Shown: in pieces, positions 6,926 to 52,816 of the stretch
Layout of the letters: each line of letters begins with the position of its first letter
Position numbering within the stretch: the first letter of the stretch is position 1
NCBI RefSeq assembly: GCF_009696275.1
Contig: NZ_VUMI01000030.1
Span: 1-64,000, forward strand
Source: Eisenbergiella porci
Lineage (GTDB): Bacteria; Bacillota; Clostridia; Lachnospirales; Lachnospiraceae
Reading direction: 5' to 3'
Length of the DNA: 64,000 bases
Translations under genes and position numbers: made by a program
Notes under the pieces: model-generated
Told to the model about the DNA's origin: nothing
The model's input: only the letters and a program-made list of their open reading frames with translations
Databases searched by the model: none

Positions 6926-7025
6926 AAATTACCTCCTTTTTCAGTAGCTGTGTCAGAGTAACCGTGTCAGCTTAAAGCGCAGGCCCCGGCAGCAAGGGCA
7001 CTGACCTGACTGAATAGCTGCCCTT

Positions 7026-7538
7026 TTATTCATTATTCTGCAGAAGGCTGCTTCCTTGCTTTATCCCTTCCGGAGTTATCAATATCAGCTTTCTGTACAG
7101 GAAGGGATTCAGGTTCTCCCGCAGCAGGGCCTGATCCTCTATAATCAAGTCCCCGTCTGTGATAAGAAGCAGCAGCCGGGAACGGGCCTGAAACATTTTC
7201 AGCTGTCCGCAGAGCAGCTCCAGCCTTTTCCGGGAAGCAAAAGGTTCATAATCCTGAAAGGCGCTTCCTGTCTGCAAATAGGCAAGGGCGGATATTTCAT
7301 GATTAATGTCGTCATCCGCTTTCCATCTGACCAGGTTCAGACGCACATTACGGAAGGTATCTCCCATGGACTTGAGTACGGCCACAATTTCCTTGCCGCA
7401 TTCGGCCAAAGCTTCCCCGTCTGCGGAGTAATCGGCCACAACCGCCATTTCTATCGGGCCGCCGCGATAATTTCCGGGCACATGAAGCACCCGCTGCACC
7501 GCATTTTTCAACTGCAGCTTTTGCACCTGAGTCAGCAT
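7026..7538 (-). CDS. uncharacterised vWA-like protein
   Basis: A 170-residue protein of unknown function. The start was placed at 7538 because this ATG overlaps the upstream HAD stop (TGATG junction). The pattern MAVVADYSADGEAL, then an amphipathic helix, a strand, and LLLLITDGDLI resembles the strand-helix order of a von Willebrand A domain with a degenerate metal site (DYSAD in place of DxSxS). No signal peptide or membrane segment is visible. Translational coupling suggests a joint role with the HAD phosphatase or simple co-expression. The vWA assignment is by eye only. Confidence 0.6.
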   Translation of the reverse strand: MLTQVQKLQLKNAVQRVLHVPGNYRGGPIEMAVVADYSADGEALAECGKEIVAVLKSMGDTFRNVRLNLVRWKADDDINHEISALAYLQTGSAFQDYEPFASRKRLELLCGQLKMFQARSRLLLLITDGDLIIEDQALLRENLNPFLYRKLILITPEGIKQGSSLLQNNE

Positions 7539-8191
7539 CACAGCATATCCTCCAGAAAATCCCTGACAGCAAAAAGACTGTCGCATTTGTGATAGAGCAA
7601 TTCTTCTATTTCGGGCGTAGGTTCCACCATATCAGGCACCATAACAGGAAGCATGCCTGCTGCCGCTGCGGAACGAATGCCGTTGGGCGAGTCCTCTATG
7701 GCAATGGCGTTCTCCGGCTTCACCCCCAGCAGCTCGCATGCCTTCAAATAAATATCAGGAAGAGGCTTGCTGTGCTCCACCATATCCCCGCCGATTACCA
7801 CCTGGAAAAAGTCCGTAAAATCCGCTCTGCGCAGATGGCTGAGCACCTTTTCCTGTCCGGTGGAGGAGGCCAGGGCGATCTTTACGCCTTTTTCCTGCAG
7901 CCAGGTCAGGAGCTCCCCGGCTCCCTTCATCACAGGAAGTCCTTCTTTTTCCACTCTTTCCTGGAAAAGGGCGGAGGTCTGTTCCCTGAAATAATCATAG
8001 GGGAAGTCCTCTCCGTAAACCTCCTTCAGGAAAATGCGGCAGTCCGTACGGTTCAGTCCGATGCAGCCGTATACTCCTTTTTCAATGTTTCCCAGTCCTA
8101 ATTTTTCGGCAACGGCAATCCAGCTTTCCACGCTCAGTCTTTCCGTGTCGAATAGTATGCCGTCCATATCAAAACAGATTGCTTCAATCAT
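7538..8191 (-). CDS. HAD hydrolase, beta-phosphoglucomutase-like
   Basis: A 217-residue HAD hydrolase with a four-helix cap. Motif I is CFDMDGILFDTE, motif II the serine in IALASSTG, motif III the lysine in EHSKPLPDIY, and motif IV the aspartates in AIEDSPNGIRSA. The last motif (GIRSAAAAG) is typical of the beta-phosphoglucomutase/YcjU/GS1-like group, which acts on sugar phosphates. The ATG follows GGAG. It sits third or fourth in a compact minus-strand run and is coupled to the vWA-like gene. Confidence 0.85.
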   Translation of the reverse strand: MIEAICFDMDGILFDTERLSVESWIAVAEKLGLGNIEKGVYGCIGLNRTDCRIFLKEVYGEDFPYDYFREQTSALFQERVEKEGLPVMKGAGELLTWLQEKGVKIALASSTGQEKVLSHLRRADFTDFFQVVIGGDMVEHSKPLPDIYLKACELLGVKPENAIAIEDSPNGIRSAAAAGMLPVMVPDMVEPTPEIEELLYHKCDSLFAVRDFLEDML

Positions 8192-8244
8192 ATTTTCTCC
8201 ATACTGTTGGTTTATTAAGCTTTCCTCTGCGGATCCTTCTGTCG

Positions 8245-8727
8245 TTAAAATATCGTCAGCGTACGGTAAATGGTATTTTCCGCCTGGGAATCAGGTATTT
8301 CAAACACTTTTTTCAGGCTTTTGCGGTAAAAGCCTTCCGCGTGCTCCGCCCAGCCGATGACCGCATAGCCATAGCCCGCCTCCCGCATGCCAAGCAGCGC
8401 TGCGCGCAGGAGAGCCTGGCCGGTGCCGTGCCCTTTTTCATCCGGTCTGATACCGATTGGGCCGAAATAGCCTTTTGCCGTGGCATCAAAGCAGGAAAAG
8501 CCGATGATTTCCCCTTTCTGCACCGCGATATAGCAGGTGATGGGATCGTGGGAAAAGGCGTGTTCACATTCGCTTTCCCAGCCGCCCTCGTAATATTTAC
8601 GGACGAACTCCATTACCTTTCCTTTATCCGGGCTGAGGACGCGGCGGATGGTGATTCCTGCCTCCTCCAGCTTTTCCGGAGACCAGGACGGATCCATATC
8701 ATACAAATTCACCAGATAATCAGCCAT
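8245..8727 (-). CDS. GNAT-family N-acetyltransferase
   Basis: A 160-residue single GNAT domain. The acetyl-CoA binding motif A is visible as IGPIGIRPDEKGHGTGQALL near residue 95 (Q/RxxGxG/A form RPDEKGHGTG). The preceding strand is GEIIGFSCFDA. The acceptor is unknown. It has an AGGAG site and lies 20 bases after ksgA, so the two probably share a transcript; a similar protein next to ksgA may be modifying a ribosome component or a metabolite, but nothing in the sequence decides this. Confidence 0.85.
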   Translation of the reverse strand: MADYLVNLYDMDPSWSPEKLEEAGITIRRVLSPDKGKVMEFVRKYYEGGWESECEHAFSHDPITCYIAVQKGEIIGFSCFDATAKGYFGPIGIRPDEKGHGTGQALLRAALLGMREAGYGYAVIGWAEHAEGFYRKSLKKVFEIPDSQAENTIYRTLTIF

Positions 8728-24835: not shown

Positions 24836-25005
24836 GAAAAAGAGCTTTGGATAGAAATAAAAACCATATTATACATTGCATCCGGTTTCCTGTCAGAAGT
24901 ACAGAAATCGGATGTTTGCATATTCTTTTGAATTAGTTTTAGTATGAGGTTTGCATTGGCATTATAAGGATTTCTACGGAACATGCGCCTGTTTATTTTC
25001 GTATT

Positions 25006-25051
25006 AAAAAGAACACCCGTCAGCCGGTATAAGCCGGCTGACGGGTGTTCT
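25006..25051 (-). terminator. lacZ terminator
   Basis: A perfect 18-bp stem (25010-25027 with 25034-25051) with a 6-base loop. On the minus strand it is followed by a T run (A run at 25006-25010), 28 bases past the lacZ stop. Confidence 0.92.
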
Positions 25052-25078
25052 AATTCCAAAATTACAAGCATTTCTTCC

Positions 25079-28163
<3,085 letters not shown>

Positions 28164-43076: not shown

Positions 43077-43110
43077 AAAAAGCGAAACGGTTTTCCCATT
43101 TCGCTTTTTT
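43077..43110. terminator. bidirectional terminator between the YesM kinase and the antiporter operon
   Basis: AAAAAGCGAAA (43077-43087) pairs with TTTCGCTTTTT (43099-43109), 11-base loop, T run on the + side and A run on the left. Confidence 0.88.
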
Positions 43111-43131: not shown

Positions 43132-45408
43132 TCAGTCAATCAACATATACAACAACGTCAGCAGCAACCCAAAGCACGCCAGAAACAGCCCAAAGGAAAG
43201 ACTCCTCCTGATAATCGTCCCGTTCTCCTGCAGATCATCATGTACCATAGCCAGCTTATGCTCATACTTACCATCCATATGCTGCCGGATATACTCCTCC
43301 TCCGCCAGCTCCTCTTCCGTGGCATCCGGGTGGTTGAAGTAATCCGTCACACCGTCAAGCACACTTCCCACAATATGGGTAAGCGCTGTTCCCTCCTTTA
43401 ATTCATGGGGTATTTTACTGTCTCTGTATATAGTCTTTCTCAACAGTACCACTAAAGAGTCCACCAGCCTGTCTGCGATGCGGCAAATACTTCCGAACAA
43501 CAGGGGAAGGAGCCTTCGCAGCACCGGACGGTAAATCCTGTCCTCCAGATCCAGCCAGGAAGGCCAGCGTTCAACGTAAACCGACTGTCCTTCTCTCACA
43601 CACAGCATCCACATACGCACCACTGTCAGGTACAGCAGGATCCCGATGATAAGGGAGATGCCCGCGCCCTTCAGGTTTACGAGAGAGAAATAGGCCACCA
43701 CAGCCTCCGGCTGCTGCGCATTCAGAAATGCGGAGGACATATCCGCCAGTCGGTCGGTAATCAGATGAGGCAGAAGTCCCAGCAGGGGAAGCAGCACGGC
43801 GCTGCCTGCCAGGGCGAAGCTGCTGATTCCATTCATATAGCGCCCCATACCCTCGAATTCCTTCTGCCTGTCTTTATCAGCATTCTTCTCCAGAAACAGG
43901 CAAATATACAGCTTCAGCATATAAGCCACAGTCAGCCCGCCGCTAATTAAAAAGACCCATTCCACAACCCCCATCCATAAAGGGCCTGTAAAGAAGGAAA
44001 GCACACTGCCCGCCGCCGGACTGCCTGCAATTCCTGCACAGGAAAGCTCTGCCACAGCCTGGGCCGCATGGGCGCCGCCCGCCGGCACGCCCGCATTTGC
44101 CGATGCCAGCAGGAGCCGGTATTCCACGATGGATTCATGAAGCAGCGTTTTGCTGGTGTAGCCGTTCCACAACGGCACGCCGCCGATTCCCAGCGCCCCC
44201 ATGAGAAAGCAGACATTTAAAAGAGGTTTTTTCCTGCCAAACCCTCTGATTTCATTCAGATTCAGTTTATGAAGGTTCATGAACACTACGCCGGCCGCCA
44301 TAAACAAAACCAGCTTAATCAGCGAGTGGTTTACCATATGGAGCAGGCTGCCCCGGATTGCCAGGCTTCCTTCTTCCCCCAGCAGTCCCTGCATGCCGAT
44401 GCCAATCAGGATAAAACCGATTTGGGATACGGAGGAGCAGGCCAGCGTCCGTTTCAGGTTCACGGAAAACAAAGCCAGCAGCGCCCCTGTAAACATGGTC
44501 AGGACGCCCAGGAACAGAATGAGCGCACCCCATCTCACATCAAACTGCAGAAGGCTGCAGCTGACCACCAGGACACCGAAAATCCCTGCCTTGGTAAGAA
44601 TCCCCGAAAGCAGTGCGGAAGCCGGCGCAGGAGCTACCGGATGGGCCTTGGGAAGCCAGATGTGAAGCGGGAATACACCGGCCTTGGCGCCGAAGCCAAA
44701 CAGCAGACAGGATGCCCCGATAAAAAGGTTCCGATAACGGACCGCCCCGCTCTCCCCCGCCAGCGTATGGCTGCGCACCGCCTCCGCCAGCGCCGTGATT
44801 TCCAGTGTTCCCAACTCACGATAAAGGATAAACAGCCCCATCAGCATTACCAGCCCGCCGATTACCGCCACAGCCAGATAGGTTTCCGCCGCCCGCAGCG
44901 CTTCCTTCGTCTCCTCATGCGCCACCCAGGTATAAGAGGTAAAGGACATAATTTCAAAGAATATAAAAGCCGTATATAAATCCGCGGAAAGGAACACGCC
45001 CACCGTCGCCCCCAGGGTCAGCAGGGTAAAAAAACGATACCGGTTCCTGGACGTATAGCTTCCCATATACTCCATGGAAAAAAAGGAAGTCATCATCCAC
45101 ATCAGAGAGGCCACCAGGCAGTACAGCGCCCGGAAACCGTCCATGCACAGATGCAGCCCCAGGCCGCAGAAGCCTTCCCATTGGAAGTCGAAGGCGATAC
45201 CCGTCCTGCCGCCTGCAAGAAATATTACGAACAGGGAGGCAAAAATCAGCATTTCCGCAGCGGTTATCAGACCGGTCCATATATCCCTTTTCTTTTTTCC
45301 GTCGCTGCTCTCTCCCGCACCCTTTTCCCCGCCGCGAAGCAGCAAAGTCACCAGCGCCCCCGCGAAGGGAATGCACAGGATCAGCAGAAGCATATAATCA
45401 CCAGTCAT
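43132..45408 (-). CDS. large antiporter-like membrane subunit (HyfB/MrpA-N type)
   Basis: A 758-residue polytopic protein of the NuoL/M/N-MrpA/D superfamily. About 14 helices form the core. The proton-path glutamate is in YTAFIFFEIMSFTSYTW and the conserved lysine in FGFGAKAGVFPLHIWLPKAHPVAPAPASALLSG. The last 200 residues are an extra cytoplasmic/membrane extension ending in one helix (LFLACFGLLLTLLYML). HyfB-like proteins share this build. The ATG at 45408 follows GGAGGA. It is the final gene of the ten-gene cluster. Its C-terminal extension is not part of the usual MrpD. Confidence 0.85.
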   Translation of the reverse strand: MTGDYMLLLILCIPFAGALVTLLLRGGEKGAGESSDGKKKRDIWTGLITAAEMLIFASLFVIFLAGGRTGIAFDFQWEGFCGLGLHLCMDGFRALYCLVASLMWMMTSFFSMEYMGSYTSRNRYRFFTLLTLGATVGVFLSADLYTAFIFFEIMSFTSYTWVAHEETKEALRAAETYLAVAVIGGLVMLMGLFILYRELGTLEITALAEAVRSHTLAGESGAVRYRNLFIGASCLLFGFGAKAGVFPLHIWLPKAHPVAPAPASALLSGILTKAGIFGVLVVSCSLLQFDVRWGALILFLGVLTMFTGALLALFSVNLKRTLACSSVSQIGFILIGIGMQGLLGEEGSLAIRGSLLHMVNHSLIKLVLFMAAGVVFMNLHKLNLNEIRGFGRKKPLLNVCFLMGALGIGGVPLWNGYTSKTLLHESIVEYRLLLASANAGVPAGGAHAAQAVAELSCAGIAGSPAAGSVLSFFTGPLWMGVVEWVFLISGGLTVAYMLKLYICLFLEKNADKDRQKEFEGMGRYMNGISSFALAGSAVLLPLLGLLPHLITDRLADMSSAFLNAQQPEAVVAYFSLVNLKGAGISLIIGILLYLTVVRMWMLCVREGQSVYVERWPSWLDLEDRIYRPVLRRLLPLLFGSICRIADRLVDSLVVLLRKTIYRDSKIPHELKEGTALTHIVGSVLDGVTDYFNHPDATEEELAEEEYIRQHMDGKYEHKLAMVHDDLQENGTIIRRSLSFGLFLACFGLLLTLLYMLID

Positions 45409-45426
45409 TGACAGTTCCTCCAATTC

Positions 45427-46905
45427 TTATATATTGCCGCCTGCAATCTGTGTAAAAAAGTCTACAATCGGCGCGGAATGCAGCCCGAAGTAGATAATGG
45501 CTCCTGCGAAAATACACAAAGGCACCAGCATCATCCATCCCGGATCCGCCGTTTCCTCCGGTATACTGCACTCTTTTTCCTTATAGGGGAAGAAAGCCCG
45601 GATCACAATGGAAAGCATATAGATGGCCGTCAGAAGCGCGGAAACCAAAAGCGCGCCTATTCCCACATATGCCAATACGTTATCGCTCATCACCGCAGCG
45701 GAAGCCAGGTTCCACTTGCTTATAAAGCCGGCCAGCCCGGGCACGCCCATAAGACCCAGGGAAGCTATGGTAAAAATTCCGAATACCACCGGCATCCTCC
45801 TGCCGAAGCCGTCAATTTCATGCACATATTGTTTTCCCGTTTTATACATTACCGCCCCCACGCAGAAGAAGGAGCAGATTTTCATTACCGCATGGAATAC
45901 CATATGGCTTAAAGCCCCCACCAGTCCCATGGGCGTCATAATACAGACCCCGAAAAGGATATAAGAAAGGTTGCTGATGGTGGAATAGGCCAGCCTCCGC
46001 TTCAGGTGCGTTTCCTTCAGCGCCCGGCTGCAGCCGTATACGATTGTAAATATAACGATTCCCATCACCACGTTCTGCGCCCAGCTGCCTCTGATAAAGT
46101 CAGGGCCGAAGCTGTAAAAGGTCAGTCTGATAATGGCAAACGCCCCCGCCTTCACCACCGCCACCGCATGCAGCAGCGCTGTTACCGGCGTGGGAGCCAC
46201 GCCTGCCTGGGGGAGCCAGGAATTAAACGGGCTTACCGCCGCCTTCACCCCAAAGCCGCAGAAGGCAATCACATATATCAGCAGAAGAAGTGTCCTCTTA
46301 TCACCGCTGATTACCGCCGGATCAAGCACACCTCCGAAGGTAAAATTGATCGTGGTCCCATAGGTCAGCAGGAAAATCAGCCCGATAAAAGCAAAAGCCG
46401 CTCCGCCCAGGGAATAATACAGGTATTTCCGGCTGGCAAGAATTGCCTCCCTTGTCAGCGTATGGAGCACCAGGGGCACCGTCACCATGGTCAGAAGCTC
46501 ATAGAAGAAATACATGGTGAGCATATCCTCTGCAAATGCAATACCCAGCGTAATTCCATAGGTGATTGTATAAAACATGAAAAAGAACCGTTCCCTCTTT
46601 TCATGCTTCATATATTCAAAAGAATACAGTGTGGCAAGAGGCCATAAAGCCGCCACCAGTCCTGCAAATACCATGGACAGTCCGTCGATTTCCAGGGAAA
46701 GGGAAAGATTGTTCACAAACCGGACGATGGGAAACGGCTCCGACGGCCTGTTAACCAGCAGGCCCGCCACAATCAGAGTGGTCAGCACCACCACCGACTC
46801 AATGTATATTTCCATATGGATTCTTTTTTTAAAGGGTATCAGCGGCGCCACCGCCCCGCCCAGCACAGGCAGGAGTATGGCCACAAGCATCATTTCTGGT
46901 TTCAT
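45427..46905 (-). CDS. MrpD/NuoM-like antiporter subunit (copy 3)
   Basis: A 492-residue 14-helix protein. The transport glutamate is in MYFFYELLTMVTVPLVLH, and the lysine-bearing helix is FCGFGVKAAVSPFNSWLPQAGVAPTPVTALLHAVAVVKAG. It matches MrpD/HyfF-type subunits in length. The AAAGGTG site precedes the ATG, and it follows the previous antiporter gene after 106 bases, the largest gap in the cluster. Confidence 0.88.
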   Translation of the reverse strand: MKPEMMLVAILLPVLGGAVAPLIPFKKRIHMEIYIESVVVLTTLIVAGLLVNRPSEPFPIVRFVNNLSLSLEIDGLSMVFAGLVAALWPLATLYSFEYMKHEKRERFFFMFYTITYGITLGIAFAEDMLTMYFFYELLTMVTVPLVLHTLTREAILASRKYLYYSLGGAAFAFIGLIFLLTYGTTINFTFGGVLDPAVISGDKRTLLLLIYVIAFCGFGVKAAVSPFNSWLPQAGVAPTPVTALLHAVAVVKAGAFAIIRLTFYSFGPDFIRGSWAQNVVMGIVIFTIVYGCSRALKETHLKRRLAYSTISNLSYILFGVCIMTPMGLVGALSHMVFHAVMKICSFFCVGAVMYKTGKQYVHEIDGFGRRMPVVFGIFTIASLGLMGVPGLAGFISKWNLASAAVMSDNVLAYVGIGALLVSALLTAIYMLSIVIRAFFPYKEKECSIPEETADPGWMMLVPLCIFAGAIIYFGLHSAPIVDFFTQIAGGNI

Positions 46906-46920
46906 AGATGAACACCTTTC

Positions 46921-46947
46921 ATAACTGTGAAGGTATTAAACAGCTGA
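46921..46947 (+). repeat. 27-base dispersed repeat
   Basis: ATAACTGTGAAGG, TATT, AAACAGCTGA, close to the 27-base consensus. It lies in the 106-base gap between two antiporter genes of the cluster. Confidence 0.6.
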
Positions 46948-47011
46948 TAACAGTCCGGATACCCGGGCTGCGGCAGCAATTTCCACTTTTTTATCTGTTT
47001 TGGATACCACA

Positions 47012-48496
47012 TCAGGCCGTAAACAGCTGGCCGGTAATCCCTGCAATACAGGAAAGCAGGCCTCCTGGGAACATTCCCAGCACTACGGCCAGTATTGCCA
47101 GTATCAGCAGGGGCACAAGCATAACGGAATCCACTTCCTTTTTCTCAAAGCCTGTCTTCTCCTCTTCCTCTCCCGGAAAAAATCCCTTCATGGGAATGGG
47201 AAGCAGATAGCCCGCTGTAAGCAGGGCGGACAGCAGAAGCACCACAGGGCCCAGCCAGCTGAATATTCCGGTATCCGAGGCAAGCGCTCCCTCAGCGAGG
47301 TACCATTTGCTCACAAACCCGCTGGCCGGCGGAATACCAATCAGCGCCAGGGACAGAAGCGTCATACAGCCAATGGTTACCGGCATCTCTTTTCCGATTC
47401 CCTTAAGCTGGGATACCTGACGCTTTCCCGTACGGAAGATAATGGCCCCGGCACAAAGGAACAGGCCGGATTTAATCATTGCATGGAATATGACGTGCAG
47501 CAGCGCCCCGGTCATTCCCGCAGGATTGAGAAGCGCCAGGCCGAACAGGATATAGGAAACCTGGCTTACCGTGGAATACGCCAGCCTTTTTTTCAGGCCT
47601 TTTTCCATATAAGCCAGCATGGATCCTAAGAAAACCGTAACCAGCGTCAGTATGAGAAACACCTTCTGCACCCATGTTCCATGCAGGAACTGTGCGCCGA
47701 AGATAAAATAAATGACACGGATAATTCCAAGAACGCCGGACTTCACGATAATGCCGGAAAGAACCGCCGACGCCGGGGCGGGCGCCACGGGATGGGCCGC
47801 CGGAAGCCAGCCCTGCATGGGAAACAGGCCCGCCTTTACGCCGAAGCCCAGCAGCATGAGGAAGGCCACCACAAGAAGCAGCGCCTCATGTCCCGTAACC
47901 AGGGAAGGATCCAGCACGCCGCCCGGCGTAAAGGTCAGCGTGTTGCCGTAACGGTTGATAAAGTACAGGCCGAACAGTGCCAGATACGCGCCGCACAACG
48001 AATAAAACAGATATTTCAATCCCGCCATAACCGCTTCCCGTGTCCGGGAATGGAATACCAGCGGCAGGGAAAGCAGCGTCATACACTCATAAAACAGATA
48101 AAAGGTAATCAAGTTTCCGGAAAAATCCAGCCCCACCAGAATTCCATACACAATAAGGTAAAAGCCGAAATACCTTTTATTACAGTCCTCATGCTCCATA
48201 TACCGGAATCCATAGATCCCGGCCAGCACCCATACAATGGTTACCACCGATACAAACAGCCTGCCCACTGCATCCGCCTTAAAATAGATGGGAAGCAGGG
48301 TCGTCAGCTGAAACAACGTAAAGGATACCTCACCCTGCGCAAGCACGCAGATAACAGCAAGCGCCGTTACAAGCAGGCCCGCGGCCGTAATAAGCACCAT
48401 TGTTTTTCTCTTTGTAGTTTTCTTCATAAACAGCAGCAAAGTCCCCAGGATAATCGGGAAAAAAATGGGGAAAAGAAGCATGCCTGATTCCTTCAT
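47012..48496 (-). CDS. MrpD/NuoM-like antiporter subunit (copy 2)
   Basis: A 494-residue 14-helix protein. The glutamate is in TFYLFYECMTLLSLPLVFH, the lysine helix in LGFGVKAGLFPMQGWLPAAHPVAPAPASAVLSG. It is closer in the loop motif (AHPVAPAPAS) to the 758-residue subunit than to copy 3, so the four paralogs are not simple tandem duplicates. AGGAGC precedes the ATG. Confidence 0.88.
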   Translation of the reverse strand: MKESGMLLFPIFFPIILGTLLLFMKKTTKRKTMVLITAAGLLVTALAVICVLAQGEVSFTLFQLTTLLPIYFKADAVGRLFVSVVTIVWVLAGIYGFRYMEHEDCNKRYFGFYLIVYGILVGLDFSGNLITFYLFYECMTLLSLPLVFHSRTREAVMAGLKYLFYSLCGAYLALFGLYFINRYGNTLTFTPGGVLDPSLVTGHEALLLVVAFLMLLGFGVKAGLFPMQGWLPAAHPVAPAPASAVLSGIIVKSGVLGIIRVIYFIFGAQFLHGTWVQKVFLILTLVTVFLGSMLAYMEKGLKKRLAYSTVSQVSYILFGLALLNPAGMTGALLHVIFHAMIKSGLFLCAGAIIFRTGKRQVSQLKGIGKEMPVTIGCMTLLSLALIGIPPASGFVSKWYLAEGALASDTGIFSWLGPVVLLLSALLTAGYLLPIPMKGFFPGEEEEKTGFEKKEVDSVMLVPLLILAILAVVLGMFPGGLLSCIAGITGQLFTA

Positions 48497-48533
48497 ATGA
48501 AGCTCCTGTCTGAACAGTCACCTGTTCCTATAT

Positions 48534-50027
48534 CTATGCAAACATATCCAGCCCCATTTTTATCCACTCCACAATGGGCTGGGACAGCATGCCCAGCGCA
48601 ATGTTCAAAGCGATAAAAAGTACGATGGTCAGCGCATAGGTTTTTTCACTTTTTATGGTAATCACTTCACAGTCGGACCGTCTTTCCGGAACGAAAATAC
48701 GGATCACGGTCTTCATGAAATAGATTGCATTCAAAATAGTACTGATGCCAAGCACGATCAATGCGGGAAGCATTTTATAAGCATGGCCGATGGAAGCCTG
48801 GGCAAACAGCAGCTTGCTCACAAACCCGGAAAACAGCGGCATGCCAACCATGGACAGGGAGCCCACGGTAAAGCCGATGCCCGCAATTTTATGGCGGTAG
48901 GCGGCTCCCGTCAGATCCTGGAACTTCCTGCTGCCCTTTGATACGTCCGTCAGGCCGATGGCCGAAATAAACAGCAGGGATTTGGTTGCCGCATGGGAAA
49001 GGATGTGGAAAATGCTCGCTACCATCCCCAGCTCGGTTCCCAGCCCGAAGCCCATATAAATATAACCTATCTGCGCCACACTGGAAAAAGAAATCATCCG
49101 CCGGATGTCATTTTCCTTGATAGCGCTTAAGGAACCGAATATCATTCCCATCAGGCCGAAAACAAACAGCACGTTTATGATTTTATTTCCCGCAATAATA
49201 TCAAATCCGATTACCCGGTAGAAGATTTTGATCAGCAGGAAAATATACCCCTTGGATACCAGGCTGGACAGCATGGCCGCAGAGGATACCGTGGAATAGC
49301 CGTAGGCATCCGGAAGCCAGGAATGGAAGGGAAACAGCGCGCTTTTTATGGCAAGGCCAACACAGATAAGGCCGATGGTTACCACCAGCGGAACCTGATA
49401 TTCCCCATGGGCCACGATTTCACCCACGCTTTCCTTGATATTGCTCATGAGCAGATGCCCTGTCATATCATAGAGCATGGAAATGCCCACCAGGAGGAGG
49501 CCGCTTCCCAAAAGGCTCATGATCATATACCTTACCGCCGCCTCTATCGTCCGTCCGTTCTGCCGGATCATAATCAGCCCGCAGGCGGAAATGGTGTTGA
49601 TTTCCACGAATACATAGGCGGTGAACAGGTCGTTTGTATATACCAACGCCAGCAGGGAGCTTAAAAGCAGGTCGGTAAGAATGTAATACAGATTATGCTT
49701 GCTGTATTCCACCTCGCCTAACAGCTTCTTCCGGCCGCCCATCATGGAAAGCAGCATGATAACACAGAAAAACAGCGCCATGCCCGCTTCCAGGACGCCC
49801 GCCCGGATTTCGTTTCCCCAGGGAGCCGGGAAATGTCCCATCATATAAGTATAGCTGGCGCCTTTTCCCATGAGATACACCAGCAGAACAGCCGACATAC
49901 AGCCCACGGCGCCGATAACGAAGGTATTCACCCATTTGGCGGCCTTCGCCGGGAGCACCGAGCTCACCGTGCCTGAGAACATGGATAAAAAAATGGAGAA
50001 GAAGGGAAAATTCTGTACAAAATCCAT
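48534..50027 (-). CDS. MrpD/NuoN-like antiporter subunit (copy 1)
   Basis: A 497-residue 14-helix protein in the canonical MrpD position right after MrpC. The glutamate is in FTAYVFVEINTISACGLI and the lysine in GLAIKSALFPFHSWLPDAYGYSTVSSAAMLSSLVSKGYIF. Its loop (LPDAYGYSTVSS) differs from copies 2-4 and is closest to MbhH/MrpD types. The ATG immediately follows the MrpC stop with GGAGGGGC in the end of that gene. Confidence 0.9.
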   Translation of the reverse strand: MDFVQNFPFFSIFLSMFSGTVSSVLPAKAAKWVNTFVIGAVGCMSAVLLVYLMGKGASYTYMMGHFPAPWGNEIRAGVLEAGMALFFCVIMLLSMMGGRKKLLGEVEYSKHNLYYILTDLLLSSLLALVYTNDLFTAYVFVEINTISACGLIMIRQNGRTIEAAVRYMIMSLLGSGLLLVGISMLYDMTGHLLMSNIKESVGEIVAHGEYQVPLVVTIGLICVGLAIKSALFPFHSWLPDAYGYSTVSSAAMLSSLVSKGYIFLLIKIFYRVIGFDIIAGNKIINVLFVFGLMGMIFGSLSAIKENDIRRMISFSSVAQIGYIYMGFGLGTELGMVASIFHILSHAATKSLLFISAIGLTDVSKGSRKFQDLTGAAYRHKIAGIGFTVGSLSMVGMPLFSGFVSKLLFAQASIGHAYKMLPALIVLGISTILNAIYFMKTVIRIFVPERRSDCEVITIKSEKTYALTIVLFIALNIALGMLSQPIVEWIKMGLDMFA

Positions 50028-50402
50028 TTACAGCCCCTCCTTTTTCAGCCTGGCCGAAATTTCATCCAAATCCAGCGTATGGTACCTGCGGTACAGCCGG
50101 ATGGTGAGGGAGAGCATCAGCGCCGTAACGGATACGGAAACCACGATTCCCGTGAGCACCAGCCCGCTGGGCACCGGATTGATATAGTTCTCCACCGCCT
50201 GGATTCCGTCCACTACGATGGGCGCCTTCCGCCCCATGATAAAGCCTTTTTCCGCAAGGAACAGATAAACGGCGGTATCCATGATGTTAAGGCCGATTAT
50301 TTTTTTAATCAGGTTCTTCTGAAGAAGAAGATTGGAGAATCCGATGCCGAACAGGATCATGGCAATGGCTTCGCCATAGTTGGATAACAGGTTCCCGCCC
50401 AT
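50028..50402 (-). CDS. mrpC: MrpC / NuoK-like subunit
   Basis: A 124-residue three-helix protein. NLLSNYGEAIAMILFGIGFSNLLLQKNLIKKIIGLNIMDTAVYLFL is the first two helices; NPVPSGLVLTGIVVSVSVTALMLSLTIRLY the third. The PVPSGLVLTGIVVS motif is typical of MrpC/MnhC. The ATG at 50402 lies at the end of the preceding gene with a GGGGGGATT site. Confidence 0.92.
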   Translation of the reverse strand: MGGNLLSNYGEAIAMILFGIGFSNLLLQKNLIKKIIGLNIMDTAVYLFLAEKGFIMGRKAPIVVDGIQAVENYINPVPSGLVLTGIVVSVSVTALMLSLTIRLYRRYHTLDLDEISARLKKEGL

Positions 50403-50403
50403 C

Positions 50404-51372
50404 CTAGAATCCCCCCTTCCGGAATAAGGCATAAAACGCGTACATGGTGCAGGTCACCACCAGGCCGACGCAGATATTCAGGACCAGTATCAGCCCGCTG
50501 CTTAAAATAGCCCCCGGCGTCCCCAGCGGAATTCCGCTTTCCAGATGATTGGCTCCCATGTAAAAGGAATAGCTTTTGGCCAGACAGTAACAGGTCAGCG
50601 CACCGAAGCAGATCCACTTATAGGTTTTTTCTGTAAAAAACCGCTCCGTTTTGGCAAAGCCGAAAGCATTCAGGTATAAAATCAGTCCCGCACCGATAAT
50701 CGCGCCGCCGGAAAAACCGCCGCCGGGGGACAGATGTCCGTTCAGTATGACATAAATACCGAAAATCATGATGAGCGGAACAAGAAAGCCCGCCACCTTC
50801 TGCAGAATCAGATCATTTTTCGGCTCATAGATCCTGTCGTTGGCTTCGGCCTCCGACTGGGTCATGGAAGTATCGGGACCGTCGCCCTCTTTCTTCTCCT
50901 TTTTATCAATACGCAGCAGAATCAGCACCGTAATCGTTGCAATAAAAAGCACATTGGATTCGCCGAAGGTATCAAAGGCACGGTAATCCAGGATCATTCC
51001 CGTAACGATATTCACCGCCCCTGTTTCCTGAAGACCCTTTGTGATATACCGCTCCGAAACCTCGTTGTTGTCAGGATTGGCCGCATTTCCCGTCCTGGGA
51101 AGATAGGAAACCGCCACAAGCATAATGGCAATGAGGCAGATACAGAAAACCACCGCCATCACACGGTAGGCCTTATTAAAAAGAAGGAGCTTCTTGTTAT
51201 GCTCCATATCATATACTTTTTCCTGCAGCTGCTGATGCTCCCGCATCCTTTCCTGGACGCTGGCTTCCTCTTCCACATATTCCTTCTGCGGCTGCATTTC
51301 CACCCGTCCCAGCAACGGATCCTCTTCCCCATAAAACCACCGGGAAAAACGGCTGCTATTCTTTTCCGTCAT
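50404..51372 (-). CDS. fused MbhE-like and MrpB subunit
   Basis: A 322-residue protein that joins two subunits. After a 60-residue cytoplasmic lead rich in charged residues, residues 65-150 match MbhE or the C-terminal end of MrpA (ISERYITKGLQETGAVNIVTGMILDYRAFDTFGE). Residues 190-320 match MrpB/MnhB (ILNGHLSPGGGFSGGAIIGAGLILY). In the archaeal Mbh cluster these are separate genes (mbhE, mbhF). The ATG at 51372 follows GGAGGACGAC and overlaps the DUF4040 gene by 17 bases. Confidence 0.85.
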   Translation of the reverse strand: MTEKNSSRFSRWFYGEEDPLLGRVEMQPQKEYVEEEASVQERMREHQQLQEKVYDMEHNKKLLLFNKAYRVMAVVFCICLIAIMLVAVSYLPRTGNAANPDNNEVSERYITKGLQETGAVNIVTGMILDYRAFDTFGESNVLFIATITVLILLRIDKKEKKEGDGPDTSMTQSEAEANDRIYEPKNDLILQKVAGFLVPLIMIFGIYVILNGHLSPGGGFSGGAIIGAGLILYLNAFGFAKTERFFTEKTYKWICFGALTCYCLAKSYSFYMGANHLESGIPLGTPGAILSSGLILVLNICVGLVVTCTMYAFYALFRKGGF

Positions 51373-51622
51373 TTTCGTCGTCCTCCCTCCGGATTGCATG
51401 GATTTTTTTCAGCGTTACAAAGAAAAGCACGCTGGTGACGCCGGCCCCTACGGCGGCCTCCGTAATTGCCAGATCCGGCGATTCCAGGAGAATCCATATA
51501 ATCGACATGACCAGGCTGTAGGACATGAATATCAAGATGGAATTAAGCAGGTTCTTGGAAAAGCTCACAGAAACCGCGCAAATCACCAGAAAGCCCATCA
51601 ACAGATATGTAAATGTCTGCAT
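51356..51622 (-). CDS. DUF4040 subunit (MbhD-like, MrpA C-terminal part)
   Basis: An 88-residue three-helix protein. FLVICAVSVSFSKNLLNSILIFMSYSLVMSIIWILLESPDLAITEAAVGAGVTSVLFF is the DUF4040 signature, with the LDAxDLAITEAAVGAG-type loop. In Mrp systems this region belongs to MrpA; here it is a separate gene, as in Mbh (mbhD). Overlaps the next gene by 17 bases. AGGAGA precedes the ATG. Confidence 0.9.
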   Translation of the reverse strand: MQTFTYLLMGFLVICAVSVSFSKNLLNSILIFMSYSLVMSIIWILLESPDLAITEAAVGAGVTSVLFFVTLKKIHAIRREDDENDGKE

Positions 51623-51643
51623 AGCAATCTCCTTCCTATTTCC

Positions 51644-51994
51644 TTAAGCTTCTTCCCGCTCTTCCTCTTTCAGGTAATCAAGCTCGCAGTGTTCCGGCAG
51701 CGTTTCATCCGTCATGACCTCCAGACGGGAGATCAGATGAGAAGAAACCGGAGACGCAAACCATAAAAAAACGATGACAAGCAGCATTTTCAGGCTGGTA
51801 AAATTCAGTCCCGAAAAAATAATCAGCCCCGTGAGCGATATCCCGATTCCCAGGGTATCCCCCAGCGCCGCCGCATGCATCCTGTTGAGTACAAATTCAT
51901 AACGATAGGAACCGAAAACCTCAAGGGCAAAGGTAAGCAGGCCGATTATCAGGACAATGGTTCCTATAATAAAACGAAGTATTTCAAGATTCAT
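51644..51994 (-). CDS. mrpG: MrpG / MnhG subunit
   Basis: A 116-residue protein with three helices. The signature LNRMHAAALGDTLGIGISLTGL (family form RMHAATKADTLG) is present near residue 37. The start at 51994 follows GGAGG inside the end of mrpF, giving an 11-base overlap. Expected to be a small structural subunit of the antiporter complex. Confidence 0.92.
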   Translation of the reverse strand: MNLEILRFIIGTIVLIIGLLTFALEVFGSYRYEFVLNRMHAAALGDTLGIGISLTGLIIFSGLNFTSLKMLLVIVFLWFASPVSSHLISRLEVMTDETLPEHCELDYLKEEEREEA

Positions 51995-52319
51995 GAGCCG
52001 CTTCCTCCTTACCTTCCTCTTTTTCCCGATCCTTCCTTTCGCGGTAAACACCCATATAAACCTTGGTCAGTACGATTACCGCCAAAAAGCTTATCATGGC
52101 ATAAATGATACAGATATCCACCAGATATCCTTCCTTCATCAGGAGGGCAAGGATAGCTATCATAACCATAACCATGGTTCCCATCATATTCACGGCCACC
52201 AGCCGGTCCGCCACACGCGGCCCGCGCACCGCCCTTATCAGGCACAGCAGCAGCATGACTCCCAGAAAGACAAGCGCCGCCGTAAATACTGTTTCATATG
52301 CCTGCTCCAAACCGGTCAT
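51984..52319 (-). CDS. mrpF: MrpF / MnhF subunit
   Basis: A 111-residue three-helix protein. ALVFLGVMLLLCLIRAVRGPRVADRLVAVNMMGTMVMVMIAIL contains the family motif RGPxxxDRxxAxN. The ATG overlaps the mrpE stop (ATGA). Ends in a charged tail. Co-translated with mrpE and mrpG. Confidence 0.92.
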   Translation of the reverse strand: MTGLEQAYETVFTAALVFLGVMLLLCLIRAVRGPRVADRLVAVNMMGTMVMVMIAILALLMKEGYLVDICIIYAMISFLAVIVLTKVYMGVYRERKDREKEEGKEEAAHES

Positions 52320-52816
52320 TGTGCCACCTGCCCTTCTATTTTGTGCAGCAAACGCACAAAGGAACTGTCCGCAAGGCCTTCGCCAAAGCGCCTGTCCAGA
52401 CAGTGTACCGTATATTCATTATCCTCCAGGGCTACTGTGATCGTCCCCGGCGTAAGCGTGATGGAATTGGCCAGCAGCACCCGGGCCGTCCTTGTCCTTA
52501 AATCCGCGCGGAAGCGGACGATTACAGGATGGACCCTGGTATGTGGAGAAACAATAAGCTTGAGAGTTGCCGCATTGGCTTTGATGATTTCCCAGATAAG
52601 AACCCCAAGATAAGCGAGGATGTATCCTGATTTCTTCAGTATCATCCAGTCCTTCCCGGGGCTGTAGTCCAGAAATTTGCAGCAGAAGGCATAGACCGCC
52701 CCCGCAATGACGATTCCAAACAGGACGATTTCCAATGTGACCTGTCCGTTAAAAAGCACCCACAGCAAAAAAAAGAGTATGTACATAAACCCATTTCCCC
52801 TCAACTTTAAACTCAT
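52316..52816 (-). CDS. mrpE: MrpE / MnhE subunit
   Basis: A 166-residue protein with two helices at the N-terminus and a cytoplasmic C-terminal part. The MrpE signature is visible: VWEIIKAN-type (here IWEIIKANAATLKLIV), RTARVLLANSITLTPGTITV and DNEYTVHCLD. The start at 52816 has GAGGAG upstream; an ATG at 52786 is a weaker alternative. It is the first gene of the cluster; trxA lies upstream on the same strand but ends in its own terminator. Confidence 0.92.
   Translation of the reverse strand: MSLKLRGNGFMYILFFLLWVLFNGQVTLEIVLFGIVIAGAVYAFCCKFLDYSPGKDWMILKKSGYILAYLGVLIWEIIKANAATLKLIVSPHTRVHPVIVRFRADLRTRTARVLLANSITLTPGTITVALEDNEYTVHCLDRRFGEGLADSSFVRLLHKIEGQVAQ

Follow-up and report, generated by a model that had tools for sequence, protein, structure and literature searches.

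The window analysed here is a whole stretch of 64,000 nucleotides, the start of contig NZ_VUMI01000030.1 of Eisenbergiella porci (GCF_009696275.1), from a genome of 6.1 Mb in 149 contigs. On its minus strand, from 52834 down to 43132, ten open reading frames (ORFs) form a cluster of the Mrp antiporter type in the order mrpE-F-G-DUF4040-(MbhE+MrpB)-C-D1-D2-D3-D4, where D1 to D4 are four antiporter-like (Proton_antipo_M) proteins of 497, 494, 492 and 758-763 residues. The cluster holds an intact cation module and four antiporter-like subunits with intact proton-path residues, and it has no electron input.

Gene content of the cluster

The genes were assigned from ORF calls and Pfam, with each of the ten proteins scoring above the curated cut-off of its family (Table 1). 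Because the E-values across the cluster run from 9e-11 to 2e-57, and the same order is repeated in most of the related loci described below, chance is excluded as the source of the assignment. An earlier sequence-only reading of this DNA had proposed the same ten-gene order, a last subunit of 758 residues and flanks consisting of trxA on one side and a terminator on the other, and all of these were borne out: a thioredoxin gene (trxA) lies upstream, and D4 is followed by a terminator-like hairpin, of which one was found on the minus strand against 0.3 expected in shuffled sequence. Its statement that start codons overlap or abut the previous stop up to the first MrpD holds for most junctions, the exception being the DUF4040 gene, which follows the mrpG stop after a gap of 21 bases. 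Beyond D1 the gaps are 37 bases (after D1), 106 bases (after D2) and 3-18 bases before D4, for which a TTG start at 45423, giving 763 aa, is also possible.

A full-length MrpA was not found, as the five PF00361 matches in the genome are D1 to D4 and a hydrogenase subunit, EchA, none of them fused to MbhD. The function of MrpA is therefore split, as had been suggested, with MbhD and MbhE encoded by separate genes, and the single long MrpA of group 1 Mrp, which joins antiporter, lateral helix and MbhD/E domains in one chain, is absent here.

Table 1 Features of the Mrp-type cluster in the window
Feature	Position	Strand	Description	Pfam match or key residues
mrpE	52316..52786	-	ATG is codon 16 of a 172-aa ORF that reaches 52834	PF01899 (MNHE), E 2.6e-30
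mrpF	51984..52319	-		PF04066 (MrpF_PhaF), E 2.2e-13
mrpG	51644..51994	-	ATG is codon 19 of a 135-aa ORF	PF03334 (PhaG), E 3.3e-18
DUF4040/MbhD gene	51356..51622	-	First part of MrpA C-terminal domain	PF13244, E 1.8e-20
MbhE + MrpB fusion	50404..51372	-	Remainder of MrpA C-terminal domain, and MrpB	PF20501, E 9e-11; PF04039 (MnhB), E 1.7e-25
mrpC	50028..50402	-	NuoK-like	PF00420 (Oxidored_q2), E 2.3e-20
D1	48534..50027	-	First antiporter-like subunit; MrpD/NuoN side of tree	PF00361; Glu142, Lys228, Lys259, Lys405
D2	47012..48496	-	Middle-type antiporter-like subunit without TM8 His	PF00361; Glu137, Lys221, Lys252, Lys397
D3	45427..46905	-	Middle-type antiporter-like subunit with MrpA/NuoL-type TM8 His	PF00361; Glu136, Lys221, Lys252, Lys397
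D4	43132..45408	-	Antiporter-like subunit with C-terminal extension (TM15, lateral helix, TM16); 758 aa from ATG	
Terminator-like hairpin 3' of D4	43077..43109	-	14-pair stem, then T-rich tail	

Conservation and distribution

We compared the cluster with 80 named loci from GTDB genomes. They are the 80 best-ranked of 582 confirmed D4 matches and thus lean towards the four-subunit form. The full ten-gene order is present in 68 of the 80, with a gene split in two pieces in three of these 68, and the other 12 start no more than 170 bases from a contig or sequence end, inside the cluster, with a later gene of the order. Locus L128, which has masked stretches, was retained in the alignment and the counts. 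By their records, 65 of the loci belong to Lachnospiraceae or a genus of it, 12 carry no family and 3 are others; holders include Hungatella hathewayi, Schaedlerella arabinosiphila and metagenome-assembled genomes (MAGs) labelled Roseburia, Blautia and Acetatifactor. In one MAG (locus L041, genome G002, 6986-8316), D1 lies in two pieces of 113 and 333 aa, probably through a frameshift or a sequencing error. Among the relatives there is again no sign of a full-length MrpA, the DUF4040 domain being a separate ORF of 84-159 aa in all 69 named loci that contain it.

D3 serves as a marker of the four-subunit form, and a D3-like match was found in 42 of 200 sampled genomes of the family. The search cut-off of 1e-90 does not by itself separate D3 from D2 or from P2, the single middle subunit of three-subunit relatives, so bit scores against the D3 of the window were used: ten other D3 proteins score 448-706, D2 at most 401 and P2 at most 388. 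By this measure 41 genomes are clearly of D3 type (best match at least 442 bits) and one, G474, is ambiguous at 325 bits. In 30 of the 42 a further match of lower score is present, which D2 would be expected to give. Seven of the 42 genomes are less than 90% complete or more than 5% contaminated.

The flanking genes are not conserved, and the ten genes therefore look like a unit. Among gene families up to 5 kb from the 68 complete clusters, those seen most often upstream are a trmB-type methyltransferase (15/68) and trxA (12/68), both labels supported by Pfam, and the commonest downstream family reaches 7/68. With the leading family at only 15 of 68, a conserved neighbour was rejected as a clue to function.

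The wider gaps after D1 and D2 might instead mean that a core Mrp including D1 and a D2-D3-D4 unit work independently of each other, and single-subunit antiport has been reported for MrpA homologues in the available text of PMC5703873. However, D2-D3-D4 follows the core in 68 of the 68 loci of sufficient length, and the three-subunit relatives likewise keep a single row of genes, which makes such a division improbable.

Proton-path and cation-site residues

Residues were counted after antiporter ORFs of 430 aa or less had been dropped, leaving 70 D1, 74 D2, 75 D3 and 80 D4 sequences. The glutamate of transmembrane helix (TM) 5 and the lysines of TM7 and TM12 are kept without exception in all four sets, while the TM8 lysine is kept in every D1, D2 and D4 and is missing from 7 of the 75 D3 proteins. 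The histidine and lysine pair of TM11 (NuoL His338, Lys342) is kept in all D1-D4 sequences; outside the set, the lysine is replaced by glutamate in four related proteins (L169, L172, L174 and L175) of the type of D4 and of P3, the third subunit of three-subunit clusters. The retention of this Glu/Lys set in all four subunits supports the earlier proposal of an antiporter with up to four ion paths. At TM12 a lysine is also found in MrpA, MrpD, NuoL, NuoN, HyfD and EchA, and a glutamate in E. coli NuoM, HyfB and HyfF. Since NuoL, NuoN, HyfD and EchA share it, the TM12 lysine cannot by itself tell an antiporter from a redox pump. The copies differ at the histidine of TM8, which is present in 75/75 D3 and replaced by serine in 74/74 D2 and 80/80 D4, such that D3 alone among D1-D4 carries the MrpA-type residue.

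The cation module is kept as well. Glu55 of the DUF4040 protein aligns to MbhD Glu69 (6cfw_D, 6u8y_D) and is invariant in 69/69 loci, and MbhD Glu69 has been equated with MrpA Glu706 at the proposed cation site (PMC7419157, in the text available). MrpC Asp42, aligned to MbhG Asp37, is invariant in 70/70, and Tyr46 stands at the position of MbhG His41, so that the second residue of this site is not a histidine. In the MbhE part of the fusion Arg131 and Glu138 are invariant (70/70) and, judging from the end points of the match to 7qru_A, would correspond to MrpA Arg773 and Glu780. Thr110, Thr112 and Pro113 of mrpE (68/68 loci) and Asp38-Arg39 of mrpF (69/69) are also invariant.

Group 3 is an established class of Mrp clusters that lack mrpA, and some of its members carry several mrpD (PMC8415708, as far as its accessible text goes). 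The cluster shows the features expected of that class: mrpE, F, G, B and C stand together with at least one mrpD; there is no full-length mrpA and its C-terminal parts are separate genes; the essential residues Glu-TM5, Lys-TM7, Lys-TM8 and Lys-TM12 are present, bar the seven D3 proteins above; and the cation-site residues (MrpA Glu706/MbhD Glu69 and the MrpC/MbhG site) are retained, the second MrpC residue being tyrosine.

The exchanged cation may be K+ or another ion rather than Na+, a reading we regard as unlikely. The tyrosine in place of MbhG His41 speaks for it, as does a report, in the available text of PMC5703873, that one Mrp exchanges Ca2+ for H+ and that a relative is a Na+(K+)/H+ exchanger. 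On the other side stand the invariant MbhD-type glutamate and MbhG-type aspartate of the proposed site. These do not settle the ion, because the same site held K+ in the A. flavithermus structure, according to the available text of PMC7419157.

The question of a redox arm

The sequence-only reading had left room for a membrane arm that works with a catalytic arm from another locus. In support of such a redox-driven pump, the gene order resembles archaeal mbhA-H, and profile searches of the window genome returned one NuoB/MbhJ-type (PF01058) and one NuoH/MbhM-type (PF00146) match. However, both lie inside a [NiFe]-hydrogenase locus (L008, contig C1, 3239-11001) that holds all of echABCDEF, with hypF next in line. 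This set has its own antiporter-like subunit in EchA, the one PF00361 match of the genome outside D1-D4. The suggested search for orphan NuoB/MbhJ-type homologues thus ended at a single PF01058 match that is already accounted for by ech.

As had been noted, there is no redox module at the cluster itself, PF01058 and PF00146 subunits not having been found beside it (the PF00146 search covered the window genome). Across the family, PF01058 was not detected in 39 of the 42 genomes with a D3-like gene, or in 32 of the 35 of high quality. It was also undetected in 7 of the 11 cluster genomes found initially (the window's own among them), while 11 of 14 control genomes gave a match. A search of the 80 loci with the six Ech subunits of the genome, covering more than 1.5 kb of flank for about 60 of the 68 complete clusters, found no catalytic gene, and its only matches were two ferredoxin-like EchF matches in L133, so that no adjacent hydrogenase genes were found in these relatives either. 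The commonest flanking families, trmB and trxA, also count against such a pump.

From the missing PF01058 in 39 of 42 genomes, and from the assignment of the copies in the window genome to ech, it follows that a hydrogenase- or complex I-like arm is not part of the four-subunit system, and a redox-driven pump with a distant catalytic arm is very improbable. This rejection is firm for the four-subunit form only and carries no claim for the three-subunit relatives.

Trees and related clusters

Trees were built as quick IQ-TREE runs with support from the Shimodaira-Hasegawa-like approximate likelihood ratio test (SH-aLRT) only. The larger tree took its four-subunit loci from 4 of the 80 named loci, 4 others and the window. 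Its long branches, HyfB, HyfD, Halo H1-H3 and L175_P2_8560, are unsure, and the second P2-like gene of L174, which has a masked stretch, was omitted from one tree and from the TM8/TM11 comparison of relatives.

D1 groups with the first subunits of three-subunit clusters (SH-aLRT 96) on the MrpD/NuoN side of the tree. D2 and D3 are sister clades (99 and 100; together 96) adjoining the middle subunit P2, and D4 groups with P3. The tree does not, then, reduce the four subunits to a standard MrpA and MrpD pair, an outcome that would have spoken against the earlier proposal. Clusters that share this order but have three subunits occur in seven genomes of the class, with the first subunit in two pieces in one of them, on a plasmid of Peptoclostridium acidaminophilum (L144) and in the haloarchaeon Halostagnicola larsenii (L146). 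Given these clusters, and the position of D2 and D3 as sister clades beside P2, the four-subunit form most likely arose by duplication of the middle subunit in a three-subunit ancestor. A second route to four subunits is suggested by family f47, in which G082 has three subunits and G193 has an additional P2-like subunit on a deep but unsure branch.

Other members of the order hold single-subunit clusters and one two-subunit cluster, whose subunits group with MrpD and not with D1; these are more distant members of the series. At the other end, G058 (90% complete, 1% contamination, no PF01058) has five subunits: three of D1 type, one of D2 type and D4. Mrp-type clusters without an adjacent redox arm therefore span one to five antiporter-like subunits.

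Three loci in this comparison have features of their own. None of the five subunits of the G058 cluster (L047, contig C6, 6435-14496) carries the TM8 histidine. The same holds for L176 (G268, contig C3, 5634-14357), which has three antiporter-like subunits, two of them (727 and 618 aa) D4-like sisters. At L053 (G051, contig C148, 720-12838), three single-D Mrp-type clusters stand head to tail in about 12 kb, in the orders E F G EB C D, F G DUF4040 C D and E F G EB C D.

Outside the cluster, two long open frames overlap on opposite strands of the window. The minus frame (25079-28123, 1014 aa) is a beta-galactosidase with GH2 domains, and the plus frame (24983-27928, 981 aa), for which Pfam gave nothing at 1e-8, is unlikely to be a gene.

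Proposed complex and mechanism

We propose, at a probability of roughly 0.7, that the ten genes encode one stand-alone cation/proton antiporter resembling Mrp group 3, with no redox module and with D2 and D3 derived from a duplication. All ten proteins would belong to one complex, in which MrpE, F and G, the split MrpA C-terminal domain (MbhD and MbhE), MrpB and MrpC form a cation module, to which four antiporter-like subunits in a row are coupled. D1 would lie against MrpC in the position of MrpD, D2 and D3 would prolong the row, and D4 would sit at its end, with its lateral helix clamping the row as that of MrpA does. Protons moving inward through the row along the membrane potential may drive the export of Na+, possibly K+, or the reverse.

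The predicted fold of D4 has TM15 and a lateral helix of the type of the MrpA N-terminal domain, and D4 alone among the four carries such a helix. It matches MrpA to about residue 636-649 and NuoL chains to about 672, whereas a comparison of its C-terminal third with PDB by sequence gave chance-level matches only. The D4 set comprised 70 sequences plus the window, after L117 (shorter than 640 aa), three proteins without the start motif and, by hand, six of the remaining 76 had been dropped.

Several findings weigh against the proposal. The TM8 histidine of MrpA and NuoL is located in D3, not D4, and the subunit that carries it is missing from two compared clusters, the five-subunit one and L176. 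By sequence, the best curated family for D4 is hydrogenase-4 subunit B, although D4 scores below the cut-off of that family, its closest solved sequence is MbhH (6cfw_H) and not MrpA, and D4 and P3 form a clade of their own. Because the D4 sequence is nearer to MbhH and HyfB, calling D4 an MrpA is a statement on fold only. The second half of the TM15-TM16 linker was predicted with low confidence (10-residue blocks at 49-81, around residues 640-740). Furthermore, a PF01058 protein is encoded elsewhere, on another contig or more than 3 Mb away, in 5 of 7 genomes of three-subunit relatives, a point that also favours the redox-driven pump.

Lengthening of the lateral helix with subunit number, the pattern of 2M complex I, was sought and not found overall. 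With single- and two-subunit clusters and the cut-off L044 omitted, the TM15-TM16 linker has medians of 130, 135 and 125 residues for three, four and five subunits (n=8, 93 and 1). The residues after TM13, a cruder measure, have medians of 238, 254 and 239. In family f47 the linker rises from 144 residues with three subunits to 193 and 211 with four, which other rows contradict. Two explanations offer themselves: a helix of sufficient length before the fourth subunit was added, or a D4 that fails to reach along the whole row.

The unlengthened linker fits an antiporter complex in which the extra subunits are structural, regulatory or alternative, for instance with D2 and D3 swapping by condition, and the ion ratio is unaltered. 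D2 and D3 also differ without exception at the TM8 histidine site, and in the Mrp structure at 2.2 A the proton routes of MrpD appear shut on both sides, as reported in the available text of PMC9568556, which implies that not every antiporter-like subunit need be a full channel. Against this, none of the 68 complete loci departs from the order D1-D4, and every copy retains the Glu/Lys set, bar the seven D3 proteins without Lys-TM8. We consider this reading possible, with the odds somewhat against it.

In the proposed antiporter, more subunits would mean more H+ per cation, about four against two. Two structure-based models, in the parts of PMC7419157 and PMC9568556 available, have 2 H+ per Na+ with two antiporter-like subunits, one of them with a coupling point at each subunit. 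Here the H+/Na+ ratio would be higher than two, perhaps four, and reverse operation would give a low-gear proton exporter. At a ratio of n, the Na+ gradient can reach up to n times the proton motive force, and an antiporter of higher ratio would thus suit a fermenter with a weak proton gradient; an RnfC gene in the window genome is consistent with ion-gradient energetics. A tentative extension is a geared family, in which the number of antiporter-like subunits (1-5) would set the H+/Na+ ratio and the four-subunit form would allow fermenting gut bacteria to keep up a steep gradient of Na+ when the proton motive force is very low. Its subunits would not be equal, since in most three- and four-subunit clusters D3/P2 carries the histidine switch and D4/P3 the lateral helix. 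We hold this extension as a whole at less than even odds.

Stoichiometry has been called unknown for Mrp in a 2022 structure paper (PMC9568556, available text). Stand-alone clusters of three, four and five subunits, with the more distant ones of one and two, could set subunit number against stoichiometry by ion fluxes alone, and this clean test makes the cluster worth following. If correct, the proposal would explain why common gut bacteria invest in ion exchange through a large, conserved and apparently undescribed set of genes, which are easily misread given that the best-scoring curated family of D4 bears a hydrogenase name.

Comparison with known systems

The P. furiosus membrane complexes MBH and MBS are the first-ranked solved sequences for all of the proteins searched, seven out of the ten: 6cfw_H for D2, D3 and D4, 6u8y_H for D1, 6u8y_D for DUF4040, 6u8y_G for MrpC and 6u8y_E for the fusion, where the match covers both the MbhE and MrpB parts. 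MBH and MBS carry redox modules (PMC8415708, accessible text), unlike the cluster here. Additional antiporter-like subunits are also known from the 2M complex I of Nitrospira and the five-pump complex I of Ca. Manganitrophaceae, which are redox-driven and have a lateral-helix insertion (26 residues in Manganitrophaceae), a precedent that predicts a longer lateral helix for additional subunits (PMC9040806, in the text available). In contrast, the present cluster lacks a redox arm and its linker is not lengthened by subunit number.

Among stand-alone systems, group 1 Mrp (B. pseudofirmus 7QRU, A. flavithermus 6Z16) has the TM8 histidine and the lateral helix together on the single MrpA chain (PMC9568556, available text), whereas here the former is on D3 and the latter on D4, with two additional antiporter-like subunits. 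The three-subunit clusters of Clostridia (L144; L165-L170, L172) and Halostagnicola larsenii (L146) share the gene order, and their first and middle subunits fall in shared clades; they differ in having three antiporter-like subunits, and the Clostridia clusters also have MbhE and MnhB as separate genes. The stand-alone group 3 mrpEFGBB'CD of P. furiosus is alike in its order E-F-G-(MbhD/E)-B-C-D, in having no mrpA and in having no redox module, and cyanobacterial mrpCD1D2EFGAB has two mrpD (PMC8415708 and PMC5703873, as far as their available text describes them). The sequence-only reading had overlooked this named class, so that the arrangement without mrpA is not in itself a novelty. Our partial coverage of the literature turned up no account of a stand-alone Mrp that carries three, four or five antiporter-like subunits. 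Compared with the one or two MrpD of group 3, the cluster has four, including a D4 with a lateral helix and middle copies that are unlike at the TM8 histidine site, and it is new as a four-subunit form within this already known kind.

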